Source of the DNA: Avibacterium avium
GTDB taxonomy: Bacteria > Pseudomonadota > Gammaproteobacteria > Enterobacterales > Pasteurellaceae
Assembly: GCF_900454535.1 (NCBI RefSeq)
Contig: NZ_UGSP01000001.1
Location: 1,547,501-1,611,500, forward strand
Length of the DNA stretch: 64,000 nt
Direction of reading: 5' to 3'
Position numbers and translations under genes: made by a program
Shown here: in pieces, positions 31,021 through 60,081 of the stretch
How positions within the stretch are numbered: position 1 is the stretch's first letter
Layout of the letters: each line of letters opens with the position of its first letter
The notes under the pieces: model-generated
What the model was told of the DNA's origin: nothing
Seen by the model: the letters and a program-made list of their open reading frames with translations, nothing else
Databases searched by the model: none

Positions 31021-31144
31021 TCAAAAATCATTTTGATGTAAACCGCGTTATTACACCATTTTATGCGAGAAATAATTTTACTCTCGCAGTATCCGGCACT
31101 ATTATTGTGTTTCTAAAAAAAAATAGCAACCATAGCGATTATTT

Positions 31145-32587
31145 ATGTACAAATTATCATCAAAACTACTGCCTTTTGCATTAGGCATTTCCTTTGCTTT
31201 GCACACGCCATATAGTGCTGCTGAAGTGGACGTGGCACAACTCAGCACGCAGCTTCCTGCGGGAACGAGTCTTTCTTTTGTGGCGAAAAATTTAAAAACG
31301 CAAGAAATTCTCACCGCACTTAATCCACAAACCTTTATGCTTCCTGCAAGTACGCAAAAAGTATTTACTGCGCTCGCTGCCAAACTGACTCTTGGCGATG
31401 AATTTCATTTTGAAACAAGTCTGCTAGGCCAAGGTGATATTAAAAATGGCGAGTTACGCGGTAACTTAATTATCAAATTTACTGGCGACCCAGATTTAAC
31501 CAGTGATCAACTATATCAGCTACTTGCCCAATTAAAACAACAAGGTATTCAGCGCATTACGGGTGATCTTATTTTAGATACTTCCGTGTTTACAGGACAC
31601 GATCGTGGCTTAGGCTGGATTTGGAATGATTTGTCAATGTGCTTTAATTCACCCCCTGCGGCGGTGAATATCAATCACAACTGTTTTTATGTGGATCTTG
31701 ATGCCAATTTGCCTACGGGTGAATTGGTGAAATTCAATGTGCCAGCGCAATATCCTGTGCAAGTGTTCGGTCAAGTGCGTGTGGCAAGCAAAGAAGAAGC
31801 GCCTTATTGCCAACTTGATGCCGTGTTGCACGACAACAATCGCTATCAAATTAAAGGCTGTCTTGCTCGTCAAAGTAAACCTTTTGCGCTCAGTTTTGCT
31901 GTGCAAGATCCCAATGCTTATGCAGCAGCCATTATTCAACGTCAATTAAACCGTCTTGGCATTGCATTTAATGGCAAAATCCAACAGCCTCGCACCGCAC
32001 AAAAAGAGCAGTTTTTAGCGCAACATTTGTCTAAGCCCCTACCAGATTTGATCAAAAAAATGATGAAAAAATCTGATAACCAAATTGCCGATGCCCTCTT
32101 TCGCACCATTGGTTATCACTATTACAAACGCCCTGCGTCCTTTCAACTTTCCGCGAAAGCAATGCGCCAAATTTTGCAATCTCAAGCAGGGATAAAATTT
32201 GATAATAGCGTTATCGCCGATGGCTCTGGGCTTTCACGCCACAACTTAATTTCTGCTAATATTATGTTACAAGCCCTTGAATATATTGCCAATCACGAAA
32301 CGCAACTGCATTTATTAGACAGCTTTCCCATTGCGGGAGTAGATGGCACATTAAGCGGACGGGGTTCGATGATCAATCCCCCTTTAGCGCAAAATATTTC
32401 CGCGAAAACAGGTGCGTTAAAAGGGGTTTATAATCTCGCAGGTTTTATGAAAAATGCGAAAGGAGAACATATTGCCTTCGTACAATTTATCAACGGCTAT
32501 TCCACGGGCGATCTGGAAAACAAAACCAAACGTGCACCATTAGTACGTTTTGAAAATGCCCTTTACAACCAACTTTATCAGGATTAA
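31145..32587 (+). CDS. dacB: D-alanyl-D-alanine carboxypeptidase/endopeptidase (PBP4)
   Basis: Class C penicillin-binding protein that trims peptidoglycan side chains and cross-links in the periplasm. A signal peptide (MYKLSSKLLPFALGISFALH, cleavage near SAA) is followed by the catalytic SxxK motif Ser69-Lys72 in PASTQKVFTAL, the SDN motif in KKSDNQIADALF and KTG in SAKTGALKGVYN. 480 residues, matching E. coli DacB. The MOSC gene starts 3 bases after its stop codon, so the two are likely co-transcribed. Confidence 0.94.
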   Translation: MYKLSSKLLPFALGISFALHTPYSAAEVDVAQLSTQLPAGTSLSFVAKNLKTQEILTALNPQTFMLPASTQKVFTALAAKLTLGDEFHFETSLLGQGDIKNGELRGNLIIKFTGDPDLTSDQLYQLLAQLKQQGIQRITGDLILDTSVFTGHDRGLGWIWNDLSMCFNSPPAAVNINHNCFYVDLDANLPTGELVKFNVPAQYPVQVFGQVRVASKEEAPYCQLDAVLHDNNRYQIKGCLARQSKPFALSFAVQDPNAYAAAIIQRQLNRLGIAFNGKIQQPRTAQKEQFLAQHLSKPLPDLIKKMMKKSDNQIADALFRTIGYHYYKRPASFQLSAKAMRQILQSQAGIKFDNSVIADGSGLSRHNLISANIMLQALEYIANHETQLHLLDSFPIAGVDGTLSGRGSMINPPLAQNISAKTGALKGVYNLAGFMKNAKGEHIAFVQFINGYSTGDLENKTKRAPLVRFENALYNQLYQD

Positions 32588-54225: not shown

Positions 54226-54256
54226 AAAAAAATCAGCCCTTAAGGCTGATTTTTTA
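54226..54256. terminator. Terminator after torZ
   Basis: ATCAGCC (54232-54238) and GGCTGAT (54244-54250) form a 7-bp stem with a 5-base loop, flanked by six A on the left and six T on the right, so it can work on either strand; it lies just past torZ. Confidence 0.85.
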
Positions 54257-54269
54257 TGTTACTAAGCAG

Positions 54270-56741
54270 TTATGCCGATTGTTTCGGTTGTTTAAACACC
54301 GTTACGGCTGGCGCTTCGCCAGTGAATTTTTCTACTTGTACAATACAAGTGTTTGGCGAATTACCCTGTGCAAGTTTTGACGTGCCTTCATCGCGAGTAA
54401 GCACATTCGGGCAGCCATTTTTACACAATGGTTTATCCGATTGTCCAAGATCCGCAGGATCGTACCAAGCCCCTTCGTGCAAGGCTACTGTGCCTTTGAT
54501 AATGCCATCAGTAACCACAGCCCCTGCAAGCACCTGTCCACGGGAATTGAAAATTCGCACAATATCACCATCAATAATACCACGCGTTGCCGCATCATCT
54601 TTATGAATCAACACTGGCTCACGATCATTCACGGCATATTTTTGACGTAATGAAGTATGCGCAAGCTGACTGTGCAAGCGGTAATATGGGTGTGGTGTAA
54701 CTAAAGCTAAAGGCGCTTCTGCGGTGGTGTTGCCAGCAAATTCTGCCGGTTCCATCCAGCTTGGATAGCCTTTGCAATCGTCATAATTCATTTTGGCTAC
54801 CACATCAGAATAAATTTCAATTTTACCTGATGGTGTACCCAATGGATTCAATAATGGATCATTGCGGAACTCTTCGTAACGCACCCATTTTTTCGCTTTT
54901 TCATTGGCTTTGAAAGTAATCGGTTTATTTTCTTCCCAGAATTTCTCGAATTTAGGCATTAATACACGGTTTTTGCGTGCCGCATCAAATGCCGTTTGGT
55001 AGAAACCTTTTAACCAATCCATTTCCGATTTATTTTCGGTGAATTGTTCTTCCACACCAGCACGCTTCGCTAATTCGGTGAAGATGTCATAATCACTTTT
55101 CGCTTCAAATTGCGGTGGCACAACTTGTTTCATTGGGTAGATATTCATCATTGAATAATCGCCTGACATTGTTAAGTCGTTACGCTCATAACTTGTTGTT
55201 ACAGGTAATACAATATCTGCCATTCGTGCCGTTGGTGTCCAGTTTACTTCATTCACAATAAAGGTATCTGGCTTATGGAAGGCTTTCACTAAGGTATTGG
55301 TATCTTGATGATGTACAAATGGATTACCACCCGCCCAATACACTAATTTAATATCGGGATAGGTAATTTCCGTGCCATTATATTGAATCGTTTTGCCGGG
55401 GTTAAGTAAAGCATCTGCCACTCGTGCCACAGGAAATGCCATTTTTGATGTTTCATCAAGCCACGTTTTTTCCCCTGCTTGTACGGCTGGATTTGCGGTG
55501 ATCGAACCTAAAATTCCGCCTGTTGCAGTTGGCACACCACCATTGGCATAGTGATAACTAAAGCCGAAGCCGCCGCCCGGTAAACCAATTTGTCCGAGCA
55601 TAGAAGCCAGCGTTACCATCATCCAGTGGCTTTGCTCACCGTGGCGTTGACGTTGCATTCCCCAACCGCCCATTAACATTGTGCGTTTAGTCACAAAATC
55701 ATTGGCAAGTTGCTTAATCACCTCTACTGGTACGCCAGTTAATTTGCTTGCCCAAGTGGCATCTTTTGGCTGCCCATCTGTTTTGCCTAATAAATATTCT
55801 TCAAATTTATCGTAGCCTGACGTGTATTTTTTCAAGAAGGCTTTGTCGTGCTTGTCTTCGCTCACTAAGGTATGTGCAATCCCTAGCATTAGTGGCACGT
55901 CAGTTGCTGTATTAATCGGGATCCACTCTGCACCTAAAAATTCGCAACTTTCGCTACGCACAGGATCAATACAGATAATACGTTTGCCGCTCTCTTTTAA
56001 TTTTTTGAAATAAGCTAAGCCTTCTTGATCCGTAGATGTCCACGCAATGCGTAAGGTTGTGAGTGGATTTGCCGACCATAACACAACAATCTCTGAACTT
56101 TCTAAAATGGTTTCCCAGCTGGTTTGTTGCTCATAAACTTCAATTGTGCCTAAAACGTGCGGCATAATCACTTGTGCAGCCCCGGTAGAATAATCCCCTT
56201 TTGAGCCAACAAAACCACCCGTTACGTTAAGGTAACGATGTAGCAAGGTACGTGCTGCGTGTAGTGAGCCTGAGCTGTACCAACCATAAGAGCCAGCATA
56301 AATCCCTGTTGCACCGTAGCTATCTCTCACCCGTTTCATCTCTTTTGCCACAAGATCAAAGGCCTGCTCCCAAGATACGCGCACCCATTCATCACGTCCA
56401 CGCAAGGTGGTATCTTTGTTGCCTTCTAAATAGCCCTTACGCACCATTGGATATTTAACACGGGTTTCGCTATAAAGCTGATCGGCAACCACAGATTGCA
56501 ACTCATTGGTTAGCGGTGCAGGAATCGCAGGGCCTGACTTCACCACTTTACCGTCTTCCACAACCACGCCTAAAGGCCCCCAGTGTGCCGCAGTAACCAC
56601 CGTGTTTTGCTCTGCCGCCAATGCTTTAGAAGATACCAACGATCCTACTACCCCACCTGATAAAGATGTTCCAGCAAGACCTAATGAAGAATGTTTAATA
56701 AAATCACGGCGACTTGCATTAATGTTGTCTTGTTTTTTCAT
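54270..56741 (-). CDS. torZ: Periplasmic S-/N-oxide reductase, molybdoenzyme (TorZ/MtsZ type)
   Basis: An 823-residue DMSO-reductase-family enzyme using bis-molybdopterin guanine dinucleotide. A twin-arginine signal (SRRDFIKHSSLGLAG) exports it folded to the periplasm. The Mo-ligand Ser is predicted at residue 185 in KGDYSTGAAQ, and GGNPFVHHQDTN and ERNDLTMSGDY are typical of the TorA/BisC/TorZ group. The H. influenzae homologue, MtsZ, has been described as a methionine and biotin sulfoxide reductase, so TMAO should not be assumed to be the main substrate. Electrons come from the pentaheme cytochrome encoded upstream. A candidate Moco riboswitch lies in its leader. Confidence 0.93.
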   Translation of the reverse strand: MKKQDNINASRRDFIKHSSLGLAGTSLSGGVVGSLVSSKALAAEQNTVVTAAHWGPLGVVVEDGKVVKSGPAIPAPLTNELQSVVADQLYSETRVKYPMVRKGYLEGNKDTTLRGRDEWVRVSWEQAFDLVAKEMKRVRDSYGATGIYAGSYGWYSSGSLHAARTLLHRYLNVTGGFVGSKGDYSTGAAQVIMPHVLGTIEVYEQQTSWETILESSEIVVLWSANPLTTLRIAWTSTDQEGLAYFKKLKESGKRIICIDPVRSESCEFLGAEWIPINTATDVPLMLGIAHTLVSEDKHDKAFLKKYTSGYDKFEEYLLGKTDGQPKDATWASKLTGVPVEVIKQLANDFVTKRTMLMGGWGMQRQRHGEQSHWMMVTLASMLGQIGLPGGGFGFSYHYANGGVPTATGGILGSITANPAVQAGEKTWLDETSKMAFPVARVADALLNPGKTIQYNGTEITYPDIKLVYWAGGNPFVHHQDTNTLVKAFHKPDTFIVNEVNWTPTARMADIVLPVTTSYERNDLTMSGDYSMMNIYPMKQVVPPQFEAKSDYDIFTELAKRAGVEEQFTENKSEMDWLKGFYQTAFDAARKNRVLMPKFEKFWEENKPITFKANEKAKKWVRYEEFRNDPLLNPLGTPSGKIEIYSDVVAKMNYDDCKGYPSWMEPAEFAGNTTAEAPLALVTPHPYYRLHSQLAHTSLRQKYAVNDREPVLIHKDDAATRGIIDGDIVRIFNSRGQVLAGAVVTDGIIKGTVALHEGAWYDPADLGQSDKPLCKNGCPNVLTRDEGTSKLAQGNSPNTCIVQVEKFTGEAPAVTVFKQPKQSA

Positions 56742-56854
56742 TGTTCACCTCAGTATGACTTTCCACGGCATTTTATATCTGGGGAAAATTCTGAAAATTT
56801 GCACCGCACTTATAAAATGCTATGAGTTTAACTTACGACACCTTTCTAAAACGA

Positions 56855-56955
56855 GTGGCATAATCATTTCTAACCATACCATTGTGCAATCAAGTTGCAG
56901 GCATTGCTTCCATATCTTTCGACTTAGGATCACAAGCTCGGAGTCAAACCAGTGC
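56855..56955 (-). ncRNA. Candidate molybdenum-cofactor (Moco) riboswitch in the torZ leader
   Basis: On the minus strand the torY-torZ gap holds an ACUCCGAGC segment followed by a hairpin with CCUAAG (56923-56928), UC-GAAA-GA and UAUGG (56910-56914), the canonical 11-nucleotide GAAA-tetraloop receptor. Next comes a two-part stem: AUGCC pairs with GGUAU, and inside it UGCAA pairs with UUGCA. Then GGUUAGAAAUGA follows. These pieces resemble the Moco RNA motif, and the downstream gene is a Moco enzyme. The outer closing stem was not resolved and the boundaries are approximate. Resemblance is from memory, not a covariance search. Confidence 0.55.
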
Positions 56956-56989
56956 TAAATAATTTTAGCGATATTCCAAATGGAAACTA

Positions 56990-58114
56990 TTAATGTGATG
57001 CGCCCACTTTATCCTTACTATTACGTTGTAAATAAATCGTGAGTGTGCGGACATCATCTGCTGACATTGATGTACGATTTTTCATTGAGTTCACCACACC
57101 AATCCATTGATTCGCGGTGTAATGATCTGCCCCAATTGCAGCGTGGCAACCACTACAATAGGTTTCATTCAAATTGTGACCAAATTGATTAAGTGCGGTC
57201 AAATTTGCCGTTAAAATAGATTTCGGTGCATTAATTTGCAAACGGACTTCCTTCCAATCTGAAGCGGTAACTTCATCATAAACAGAACGTAACACCTGCA
57301 TTTTATCTTGCGGCACATCTTCCAATAACGCCACCATAATGCGTTTACCTAAATCCATATAAAGAATGCTTTCCGCCCCAGCTTGCTGCCAGCCTGTGAT
57401 CGTCGCTGAAACTTGATCCCCCGTGGCTTTCCAATCGGTCAATTCAGCATAAGGCATTAGTCGAATACTGCCCCCATCAGCAATATTGACATTACTCATC
57501 GCGAGGCTATATAAGGTTTTATCCTGTGGGCTAAACTCCCCGCCGTGTTTACTTAACTCACCACTGGCTTCTTGGTTATCAACGTCCATTTCAGGCATAA
57601 AATGCACAATGCCTTTATGGCAATCAATGCACGTTTGATTGGTTTCCTGTGCTATTTTATGCATTTTCTGCGCGGCTTCTGATTGCTCTGAAAGCACCAT
57701 TGCTTCAGCACTATGACAACTTTTACAAGTGGCCGAATCGTTTTCTTTCATCTCCGCCCAAACCTGTTTCGCCATAGCTAAACGATGGGTTTCATAGGCT
57801 TCTTGGTCTGGCAATTTATCGACTACAACGGTATTCCACACATCTTTTAACGCCATCACCTTGGTTTTCACATAATGAAATGCGGAATCTTGCGGAATAT
57901 GACAATCTGCACATTCCGCACGAATACCTTTGCGATTAGAAAAATGTACGCTTCCTTCCCATTCTTCCTTTGGAATTTCCATAGAATGGCAGCTCACACA
58001 AAATTCAGTGCTGCTGGTAGCTTTCATTGCATATTGCGTTCCCGCAAACACGCCCACACCAAGCAACACGCCAAACAAACCGCCTAATACAAATTTCTTA
58101 TTCAATTTCGCCAT
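56990..58114 (-). CDS. torY: Pentaheme c-type cytochrome (TorY/MtsM type)
   Basis: 374 residues: an N-terminal membrane anchor (FVLGGLFGVLLGVGVFAG), then a NapC/NirT-type tetraheme domain with CVSCH (Cys39-His43), CADCH (68-72), CKSCH and CIDCH, and a C-terminal monoheme domain with CSGCH. This is the TorC/TorY layout: it oxidises quinol and passes electrons to the periplasmic reductase encoded by torZ. The promoter lies 50-100 bases upstream and carries a perfect 9-2-9 palindrome. A 248-base gap with a likely structured RNA separates it from torZ. Confidence 0.94.
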   Translation of the reverse strand: MAKLNKKFVLGGLFGVLLGVGVFAGTQYAMKATSSTEFCVSCHSMEIPKEEWEGSVHFSNRKGIRAECADCHIPQDSAFHYVKTKVMALKDVWNTVVVDKLPDQEAYETHRLAMAKQVWAEMKENDSATCKSCHSAEAMVLSEQSEAAQKMHKIAQETNQTCIDCHKGIVHFMPEMDVDNQEASGELSKHGGEFSPQDKTLYSLAMSNVNIADGGSIRLMPYAELTDWKATGDQVSATITGWQQAGAESILYMDLGKRIMVALLEDVPQDKMQVLRSVYDEVTASDWKEVRLQINAPKSILTANLTALNQFGHNLNETYCSGCHAAIGADHYTANQWIGVVNSMKNRTSMSADDVRTLTIYLQRNSKDKVGASH

Positions 58115-58166: not shown

Positions 58167-58212
58167 ATTATAAATTTAGAATAAGGGATCTCAATACGTA
58201 AAGTTACGTATT
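58167..58212 (-). promoter_or_regulatory. torY promoter with perfect 9-2-9 palindrome
   Basis: On the minus strand TTGAGA (58189-58194) and TATAAT (58167-58172) are 16 bases apart, a strong sigma-70 promoter. AATACGTAA (58193-58201), two bases, then TTACGTATT (58204-58212) is a perfect inverted repeat that overlaps the -35 edge by two bases. Its TACGTAA-N2-TTACGTA core has the 7-2-7 geometry used by NarL/LuxR-type dimers. Confidence 0.75.
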
Positions 58213-58258
58213 TACCCAATAAGTATTAGAAAGTTTGATTTATCGCAAAAGAAAGGAA

Positions 58259-59962
58259 CTAAAGCCGAAACCAATGAGGCAACTTAAAGACAGATTCAGC
58301 AAAAACGTCAGGCGCTATCACCGTGCTTTTTCCTTGTTGAATCTGAAAAAGTAAATGAGGTTGGCTAATAGAAAGATCTTGGGTGTTATCAGGATAAGTC
58401 AGCCCTGCTTGCACTTCTCCACCAAAATAGTAAGTGCCATTTACCCCTGTATAAGCTAAGGAACGAATGCCATTAATGACTTCTTTAAACGCCCTTGGGG
58501 AAGTGCTATGTCGCCAAACATTGGCAAGAATTTGAATTTGATCATAAGCGACACTCGCTTGTGAATAACTGGGTTGATGATCAAAAAATCGTTGATAATC
58601 TTGGCAAAATTTGCGTCCTGCATAAGTCATACTCAGCCCTGTGGTACTTGCCCACAATACGCCCTCACACTGTTGTTCTTGCGGTAAAAATACCGAAGGT
58701 GCGTAAATACTATAAATAATCGCGTTAATCGGATTTTGGATAAAAGATTGATAAAATTGCAAAATATCTTCCGCAAAATAAGAAGCAAACACGATTAAAG
58801 TGGGATCAAAATAGCACACTTGTTTCATCGCATAATCAAAAACTTGTGGAGATTTTTCTAATGTCAAAACATCGACCTGCCAATGTTCCTGACGTAATTG
58901 AGAGATAAGATTTTCAATACCTATATCGATTTTTTGCCATTTAACTGTAATCACTAAAATCCTTTTATTTTTCATCACTTGCGGATAATGGAATTGATAA
59001 GCTCGAATAAAACGTGCAACCCCTGCCCCATAGTTAATATCGCTGGCACACGCCTGAAAAATATTTTTTATCTGATTGTGATGAGATTTGCCCAAATCAC
59101 TATGTGTAGCAAGATGAATATAGGGAATTCCTTTACTGGCAATCCATTCGTGTAAATCAGGAGAATAGCAGGCATAGCTCGCAGAAATCGCATCAACTTC
59201 TTTATCTAATAATCGTTGGTATGCTTGATGGATACTTTGCGGATCATCAACACAAAATCCTACCGTTTCTAACCGCACTTGCCGCCCATTAATCCCACCT
59301 TGTTGGTTAATCATTTCCACTGCTAATTGTGAGCCGTTGCATAATTCTTGCGTATCTAGCTTACCAATTCCTTGTTCCACATAAGGAACGCCAATAGTAA
59401 TAGGATAAGTCCTTGTTGAATGAATAACGTGCAGTGCTTTTTGCGGCAGTTTTTCCCCTTTCGCAAGGCTTTCAATTTCATACGTTGCTAAAATAGATTG
59501 CGATAAATCACCCGGTGTTGGCAAACAGCACAGATTTTCTGTTACCGCAAACACCGCCAAGCTAGTCCGATTTTCAATTTTTGTTTTTTGAAAAAGATGC
59601 TCAACGTGTTTGGCAACAGTACGTTCACTAATAAAAAGCTGTTGAGAAATTTCTACATTGCTTAGTCCACTACTGAGCAAGGTGAGAATTTCAATTTCTC
59701 GCTTACTCAGCTCAAAAGGCAACTGAGTTTGCTGGGCTGTCATTAAGGTAAAAATCTGCTTATAGCGTTGTAAACTCACATTAAGCCATTGATTATTTTC
59801 TGTTTGATAATAAAAGCATAAGCTATCTCGCTTGGAAGAAAGTAAAGCCTGAGCATAATCAATAAGCTGAGGGAGCATTTCAAAATAGGCTTTCCCTACA
59901 CAACTATCCCACTCTATTAATTGTTTTTGCTCATCAACCAAGCACGCCCACGTCAATTCCAT
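58259..59962 (-). CDS. LuxR-type HTH regulator fused to a periplasmic-binding-protein-like sensor domain
   Basis: 567 residues. Residues 1-80 form a short N-terminal region; 84-145 form a LuxR/NarL-type HTH (LSKREIEILTLLSSGLSNVEISQQLFISERTVAKHVEHLF). From about 186 to 520 the sequence matches a type I periplasmic-binding fold of the AmiC/LivJ/UrtA kind (NGSQLAVEMINQQGGINGRQVRLETV). There is no signal peptide or membrane segment, so the binding-protein fold appears to work in the cytoplasm as a ligand sensor. The gene is 144 bases upstream of torY on the same strand, and the palindrome in that gap is the obvious candidate operator. The ligand is unknown; an amide, branched-chain amino acid or a sulfoxide or N-oxide is possible. 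Confidence 0.85.
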   Translation of the reverse strand: MELTWACLVDEQKQLIEWDSCVGKAYFEMLPQLIDYAQALLSSKRDSLCFYYQTENNQWLNVSLQRYKQIFTLMTAQQTQLPFELSKREIEILTLLSSGLSNVEISQQLFISERTVAKHVEHLFQKTKIENRTSLAVFAVTENLCCLPTPGDLSQSILATYEIESLAKGEKLPQKALHVIHSTRTYPITIGVPYVEQGIGKLDTQELCNGSQLAVEMINQQGGINGRQVRLETVGFCVDDPQSIHQAYQRLLDKEVDAISASYACYSPDLHEWIASKGIPYIHLATHSDLGKSHHNQIKNIFQACASDINYGAGVARFIRAYQFHYPQVMKNKRILVITVKWQKIDIGIENLISQLRQEHWQVDVLTLEKSPQVFDYAMKQVCYFDPTLIVFASYFAEDILQFYQSFIQNPINAIIYSIYAPSVFLPQEQQCEGVLWASTTGLSMTYAGRKFCQDYQRFFDHQPSYSQASVAYDQIQILANVWRHSTSPRAFKEVINGIRSLAYTGVNGTYYFGGEVQAGLTYPDNTQDLSISQPHLLFQIQQGKSTVIAPDVFAESVFKLPHWFRL

Positions 59963-60081
59963 TTTTATCCTAATCTGTTATTTGCAAACGGAATTATCAT
60001 AAAGAAGTTTGTATGCCAATTTACTGATATAAATCAATAGATAAATGACAAAACAAAGTGCGGTGAAATTTTTTATCATTT

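Follow-up and report, generated by a model that had tools for sequence, protein, structure and literature searches.

We analysed a stretch of 64,000 nucleotides from the 2.2 Mb genome of Avibacterium avium (NCBI RefSeq assembly GCF_900454535.1, contig NZ_UGSP01000001.1, positions 1,547,501 to 1,611,500), hereafter the window, in which the gene for a fused transcriptional regulator lies beside the respiratory genes torY and torZ and probably controls them. The regulator gene (58259–59962, minus strand, stop codon included) is an open reading frame encoding 567 amino acids. Downstream of it and in the same orientation lie its two putative targets: torY (56990–58114, minus strand), encoding a NapC/TorC-type pentahaem cytochrome c that scores below the TorC equivalog cut-off, and torZ (54270–56741, minus strand), encoding a molybdopterin S/N-oxide reductase of the bisC family (TIGR00509, 1248 bits against a cut-off of 1017.55).

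Regulator, operator and torY promoter

An AlphaFold2 model of the full-length regulator, made from a 15-row alignment (pLDDT 81.4, pTM 0.76), shows three domains. Residues 1–79 (59726–59962, minus strand) form a separate domain when residues 1–149 are modelled alone (pLDDT 93.5), with the order b-b-a-a-b-b-b of strands and helices. We tentatively label it PAS-like: the top Foldseek matches of residues 1–149 were VqmA and EL222, which we take to be PAS-LuxR proteins, at a low TMq of ~0.4 and partly via the DNA-binding domain, and no Pfam PAS match appeared in the regulator at E ≤1. The DNA-binding domain is a GerE/LuxR-type helix-turn-helix (HTH; residues 84–138; 59549–59713, minus strand; Pfam PF00196, E 1.4e-17), which at 63.5 bits against a Pfam cut-off of 23.5 belongs to the GerE superfamily and was recovered again in a whole-genome scan. 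The ligand-binding domain (residues 186–566; 58265–59407, minus strand) is of the Peripla_BP_6, LIV (leucine/isoleucine/valine)-AmiC type; PF13458 covers residues 186–514 with 62.4 bits against a cut-off of 31.7, and the fold is the type I periplasmic-binding fold. The AmiC/UrtA group model, Peripla_BP_5 (PF13433), reached 22.6 bits, under its cut-off of 27. In a fold search this domain matched 3h5l (Z 38.8) and the AmiC structures 1qo0 (Z 32.7) and 1pea (Z 32.1), and it also resembles leucine/valine-binding and urea-binding proteins; TorT was not among the 50 structural matches listed, which excludes nothing.

The 13 Pfam families listed for the regulator at E ≤1 include no receiver family, which a response regulator would have, no autoinducer-binding family, which a LuxR protein that binds acyl-homoserine lactones would have, and no LacI-type HTH, the HTH being GerE. 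The highest mean hydropathy over 19-residue windows was 1.03 (no dedicated signal-peptide predictor used); the protein has no strongly hydrophobic segment and should therefore be cytoplasmic. A sequence-only reading of this DNA had described a 567-residue fusion of a LuxR/NarL-type HTH with a type I binding fold, free of membrane segments. HTH, binding fold and the lack of such a segment were all borne out, and the third, PAS-like domain at the N-terminus had been missed.

Upstream of torY, a perfect 9-2-9 palindrome, AATACGTAAAGTTACGTATT, with a 7-2-7 core ending in TAC...GTA, occupies 58193–58212 (0 mismatches, no strand assigned). We refer to it as the operator. Allowing up to 3 mismatches, the window has no second match; in 100 shuffled versions the mean count was 0.07, and 7 of them had a match at all. 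The operator shares two bases with a −35-like hexamer, TTGAGA (58189–58194, minus strand), a consensus match only, and a −10-like TATAAT follows at 58167–58172 (minus strand). The palindrome and its place against a −35 box are thus as the same reading had claimed, with the reservation that promoter-like −35/−10 pairs show no enrichment in the region (3 vs. 7.2 expected from shuffles). Given a transcription start ~7 bp past the −10 hexamer, the palindrome centre would lie near −42. The centre of an FNR-like box, TTGCGATAAATCAA (58235–58248, minus strand), with 2 mismatches to the FNR box consensus TTGATnnnnATCAA, lies 39 bp upstream of the operator centre, and another such box, TTGATTTATATCAG (60024–60037, minus strand), lies upstream of the regulator gene.

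The operator follows the regulator in the Pasteurellaceae

A full-length regulator is encoded in 18 of 140 genomes of the family, in 8 of 43 genera and in 20 copies; the remaining strong matches listed are HTH-only. Sixteen copies are upstream of and co-oriented with torYZ, in differing surroundings, the G083 copy being ~2 kb off. Two more (G054, G049) are upstream of torE-torC-torA-torD-like operons (torECAD), a call based on Pfam matches of torC, torA and torD in one of the two operons, with the small torE-like frame read from the neighbourhood. One copy (G048) is apart from torYZ, on another contig, and one, in Avibacterium paragallinarum (G025) of the window's genus, is split into several frames in a genome where torYZ is missing. 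In a class-level sample the regulator was found in one of 369 genomes, the window's own, and in a phylum-level sample five of 398 genomes matched: the window's own and four in which the match was confined to the binding domain.

All 17 torY promoters of carriers with torYZ (8 genera, G048 included) have the operator, in the form AATACGYA-N3-TTRCKTATT with few deviations, vs. none of the 59 examined torY promoters of Pasteurellaceae without the regulator. The comparison covered one strand over 300 bp. The non-carrier set was drawn from 64 torY-like places (E < ~1e-70), of which 60 were taken, with partial G014, G044, G070 and G130 left out; L137, whose anchor was a torC match, was dropped, leaving 59. 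Matrix scores were 20.7–29.3 for carriers (leave-one-genus-out), and the 59 non-carriers had a maximum of 9.6 and a median of −1.7. Identity between genera was 0.81–0.87 within the site vs. 0.24–0.43 in flanking windows (at least 28 pairs). The exact operator pattern occurs in the 140 genomes at 15 places in 15 genomes, every one a carrier's torY promoter, and at a single place in the window's genome, also at one mismatch. One-mismatch matches, exact ones included, are spread over 47 genomes, and a reversed control pattern is about equally scattered. The choice of torY as the target, made in the sequence-only reading, has thus withstood the comparative check which that reading had itself set, conservation of the palindrome next to homologues of the regulator.

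On a TorZ tree of 76 rows (L094 dropped, its TorZ being short), regulator presence requires 7 changes, at least 5 of them on well-supported branches. In 5 of 5 independent pairs on this tree the site state shifts with the regulator, the states being taken over from the promoter comparison and not rescored. Close relatives show the same association. In G023 and G024, which belong to the window's genus, TorY is 99% identical and torYZ is kept, and both the regulator gene and the operator are absent, with window positions 58180–60054 replaced by ~113 bp that have no blastn match. Their promoter retains the −10-like TATAAT, has nothing within 4 mismatches of the operator consensus in 400 bp and aligns the FNR-like box with a sequence of 3 mismatches, which we did not count as kept. 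G053, from another genus, has near-identical torYZ (TorZ 97%) and neither regulator gene nor site. Among torC-torA genes, where the operator was scored on both strands, those of G048 have no adjacent regulator copy and no site, and those of G049 and G054 have both.

In 16 of the 17 promoters the centre of an FNR-like box (at most 2 mismatches to the consensus) precedes the operator centre by 39/40 or 49/50 bp; in G048 the phased box ties with another at 123 bp. We followed four extra operators, at Bibersteinia torZ, in the Bibersteinia moaA/AraC-type gap and in the regulator-moaA gaps of G048 and G049, and in three of the four an FNR-like box lies at 28, 59 or 60 bp. Spacings of 28, 39/40, 49/50 and 59/60 bp rise by roughly one helical turn at a time. 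Of the 18 regulator copies examined (all 20 but G025 and the second one of G049), 17 have such a box no more than 100 bp from the start of the regulator gene.

Several neighbouring features accompany these loci. Operators lie upstream of moaA, a gene of molybdenum-cofactor synthesis, in three genomes (L036:9378, L038:8594, L259:4172), and in G048, G049 and a Mannheimia (L042) moaA and the regulator gene are divergently oriented. In Bibersteinia trehalosi (G031, L049:3668-5744), mesX and a cobalamin-independent methionine-synthase-like gene are inserted between torY and torZ, and torZ has its own operator, FNR-like box and molybdenum-cofactor (Moco) riboswitch; the methionine-synthesis-type insertion hints at methionine sulfoxide as a relevant substrate. 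In the window a Moco riboswitch (RF01055; 56823–56955, minus strand; 72.8 bits, gathering 36) also separates torY from torZ, so torZ seems to be under its own cofactor-level control. This element is not specific to the regulator: among 15 loci scanned it matched in 6 of 13 regulator-less torYZ loci and in 2 of 2 with the regulator. Open frames opposite torZ and the riboswitch (54256–54606 and 56506–56958, plus strand) are probably not genes. Elsewhere in the window, positions 31067–31145 (minus strand) match the small RNA family AaHKsRNA69 (49 bits, gathering 43). In Glaesserella australis (L035:6829-7356), the gene immediately upstream of the regulator copy codes for a protein with a cytolethal-distending-toxin A/C domain.

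Relatives outside the family

Genome contigs were scanned with two peptide patterns, and from the best 80 of 184 candidates 78 loci were retained, so relatives may be missed. The non-family loci with similarity beyond the HTH region were alphaproteobacterial, from two Rhizobium, Labrys, Afifella and a Paracoccus metagenome-assembled genome, at 33–42% identity. Plasmids added relatives in Agrobacterium (38.8%), the actinobacterium Paenarthrobacter (29.2%) and Paracoccus pantotrophus (31–33%, in pieces). We read nine loci (L151, L153–L156 and L224–L227, some on plasmids), leaving out a third P. pantotrophus copy (H4/H9) and a partial one in Rhodococcus (H50). In 9 of 9, genes of the nitrilase (CN_hydrolase) and polysaccharide-deacetylase families adjoin the regulator; in the two P. 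pantotrophus plasmid loci the nitrilase, deacetylase and regulator genes are all in pieces, the first two unannotated. The substrate of the nitrilase/deacetylase pair might point to the ancestral ligand. A tblastn search with those nitrilases and deacetylases found nothing in 21 Pasteurellaceae loci.

A symmetric matrix built from Pasteurellaceae sites only was run over the nine loci (11–18 kb), and its top position fell 33–86 bp ahead of the nitrilase gene in 8 of them. Scores reached 24.7 in Paracoccus L155, 15.9 in Labrys L153, 15.0 in Rhizobium L151 and 14.2 in Agrobacterium L224. The core TACGCA-N4-TGCGTA is perfect in Labrys and Paracoccus L155, where 0.00–0.01 matches at up to one mismatch are expected by chance. 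For all four loci with a match at up to one mismatch the expectation is 0.00–0.04, an estimate made on these four of the nine after their matches had been located. Because proteins only 29–42% identical share a like operator before unrelated genes, we regard this as the strongest sign that the operator belongs to the regulator, and, judged from sequence, the operator has apparently been kept across bacterial classes.

On another plasmid, from Aminobacter niigataensis DMFA1 (L228:2978-7290), a binding-protein relative of the sensor domain is encoded close to a dimethylformamidase gene and an ATP-binding cassette (ABC) transporter. We also considered DmfR, a LuxR-family activator of dimethylformamidase, as a relative; no Paracoccus aminophilus was among the 45 plasmid matches listed, so no sign emerged that DmfR is of the same kind.

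Proposed mechanism, alternatives and known systems

Our reading, to which we assign a probability of about 0.8, is that the protein is a cytoplasmic one-component regulator that binds the operator as a dimer, senses a small molecule and activates torYZ with the aid of FNR, as part of a transferred module. The domains, the operator, its co-occurrence with the regulator, the phasing of FNR-like boxes and the like operator in other classes were computed; direct binding, activation over repression, the ligand and the direction of transfer are what we infer from them. The LuxR/NarL-type HTH dimer would bind one operator, resembling AATACGYA-N4-TRCGTATT, at ~−42 of the torY promoter, against the −35 box, and contact RNA polymerase. 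FNR, bound one or more helical turns upstream on the same DNA face, would act jointly with it, and at E. coli napF NarP and FNR act together in a comparable layout. FNR control itself is general, since 58 of the 59 non-carrier torY promoters also have FNR-like boxes (within 300 bp); the special part is the register with the operator. The LIV/AmiC-type domain may report the small molecule, so that torYZ would most likely be activated at low oxygen in the presence of the ligand. Since distant relatives carry a similar operator before their own nitrilase-deacetylase genes, the module was apparently transferred to torYZ, and in a few genomes to torECAD and moaA, probably predating its respiratory role. 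More tentatively, at odds we would place somewhat below even, the Pasteurellaceae may have captured a portable regulator-operator module that controls nitrilase-deacetylase operons in alphaproteobacteria and an actinobacterium, kept its operator essentially unchanged and rewired it to torYZ, torECAD and some moaA genes, set it in helical register with FNR and turned it to direct intracellular sensing of the reductase substrate.

A number of observations weigh against the preferred reading, an FNR-aided activator of torYZ, beside those given below with the alternatives that they favour and the wide occurrence of FNR-like boxes just mentioned. Glaesserella australis (L035) lacks a phased FNR-like box, and the moaA site of Bibersteinia lacks any such box. 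The sign test on the five tree pairs gives p = 0.0625, the lowest value five pairs can reach. In both cases where a regulator copy adjoins torECAD, the operator is weak, with scores of 15.1 (G049) and 11.1 (G054). Reading frames are interrupted in three of the 20 copies, namely G025 (several), the second one of G049 (one stop) and G115, where the frame breaks near residue 490 and the operator is nevertheless intact. Outside the family, Agrobacterium L224 has a near-equal match of 14.0 inside the regulator gene, Rhizobium L156 and Paenarthrobacter L225 score weakly (7.0 and 7.7), the two P. pantotrophus loci (L226, L227) score 4.4 each with a spacer one base longer and broken genes, and Afifella L154 has no operator.

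The most likely ligand is a TorZ substrate (methionine sulfoxide, dimethyl sulfoxide (DMSO) or an N-oxide) or a related, amide-like compound. Haemophilus influenzae TorZ/MtsZ is reported to reduce methionine sulfoxide and other S/N-oxides (PMC5122715), which makes a TorZ substrate the natural candidate. Small amides are the main alternative because of the AmiC-like fold, the nitrilase context of the relatives and the dimethylformamidase gene near the plasmid relative. It is a real possibility, though one we rate a little under evens, that the ligand is an amide, an amino acid or a similar nitrogen compound and that torYZ is induced by a proxy signal. LIV-type proteins, AmiC and urea-binding proteins head the fold matches, and nitrilase- and deacetylase-family genes adjoin every non-family locus read, if in pieces in two; the Aminobacter DMFA1 binding protein points the same way. 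Against it, 18 of the 20 Pasteurellaceae copies are upstream of tor genes, no such nitrilase or deacetylase was found by tblastn in the 21 Pasteurellaceae loci, methionine sulfoxide is among the reported substrates of H. influenzae TorZ, and methionine-synthesis-type genes are inserted in the Bibersteinia operon. A switch of ligand is easy to imagine, since acetamide, DMSO, dimethylformamide and trimethylamine N-oxide (TMAO) are similar in size and polarity.

The same regulator and operator might instead repress torYZ, the ligand lifting repression by a LacI-like logic. The two bases that the operator shares with the −35-like hexamer would suit a repressor too, and most LacI-type proteins that have a type I binding fold act as repressors. 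We nevertheless consider repression unlikely: sites at ~−42 are typical of activators, and FNR-like boxes stand upstream in helical phase (28, 39/40, 49/50 and 59/60 bp), a layout like that of E. coli napF.

Far less probable is that the palindrome is owned by another regulator, chiefly NarP, and that the fused protein is a mere neighbour. The 7-2-7 geometry with TAC...GTA ends is NarL/NarP-like, and a NarP/NarL-like protein is encoded in the window's genome, its best-scoring model being NarP at a score below the cut-off. NarP sites have also been predicted upstream of torYZ in three other Pasteurellaceae (PMC1805755). GerE-type matches, however, occur in 139 of the 140 family genomes, mostly in frames of response-regulator size (NarP was not identified in each), and none of the 59 regulator-less torY promoters has the site, for which reason we set NarP aside as its owner; in other classes, too, relatives of the regulator have a like motif before the nitrilase genes next to them. 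That the site is kept merely by hitch-hiking, as the adjacency of gene and site in most genomes would allow, we give almost no credence and reject, since promoter flanks are unconserved between genera and G048 retains the site with its gene on a different contig, and extra operator copies occur at moaA and torZ.

If the preferred reading, an FNR-aided activator of torYZ, is true, torYZ (mtsYZ) gains a specific regulator in the carrier lineages, and a whole sensor-operator pair would be movable from one metabolism to another. It would offer a compact one-protein sensor, and with close relatives in one genus that have or lack the module as natural controls, the prediction lends itself to a direct test. 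The sequence-only reading had called the design unusual. A binding fold in the cytoplasm paired with an HTH is familiar from LacI, LysR and, together with AmiR, AmiC, so the novelty of that pairing had been overstated; its combination with a LuxR-type HTH is unusual, as claimed. In the open-licence literature searched we found no account of a tor regulator that joins a LuxR-type HTH to a binding protein, and a one-component regulator built from a LuxR-type HTH between PAS-like and AmiC-like domains, acting on S/N-oxide respiration, looks new.

Among known systems, the regulator resembles in its sensor AmiC of the Pseudomonas amidase operon, a cytoplasmic amide sensor with the same fold, and the regulator's relatives adjoin nitrilase-family genes. 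AmiC, however, has no DNA-binding domain and works via the antiterminator AmiR, whereas the regulator is a sensor-HTH fusion with an operator at a promoter. With LacI/GalR proteins it shares the one-component plan of an HTH and a type I periplasmic-binding fold, and it differs in having a GerE HTH, a Peripla_BP_6 domain of the LIV/amide type and the extra PAS-like domain. NarL and NarP have the same GerE HTH, a 7-2-7 operator with TAC...GTA ends and a partnership with FNR; unlike them, the regulator has no receiver match, and its half-site is TACGYAW vs. TACYYMT for NarL/NarP. VqmA and EL222, the top fold matches of residues 1–149, have no binding-protein domain after the HTH. The TorT/TorS/TorR system of E. 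coli likewise has a tor operon under the control of a type I binding protein, which there senses TMAO, but in that system the task is spread over three proteins with a periplasmic sensor and a phosphorelay, whereas here it would fall to one protein without a signal-like segment.

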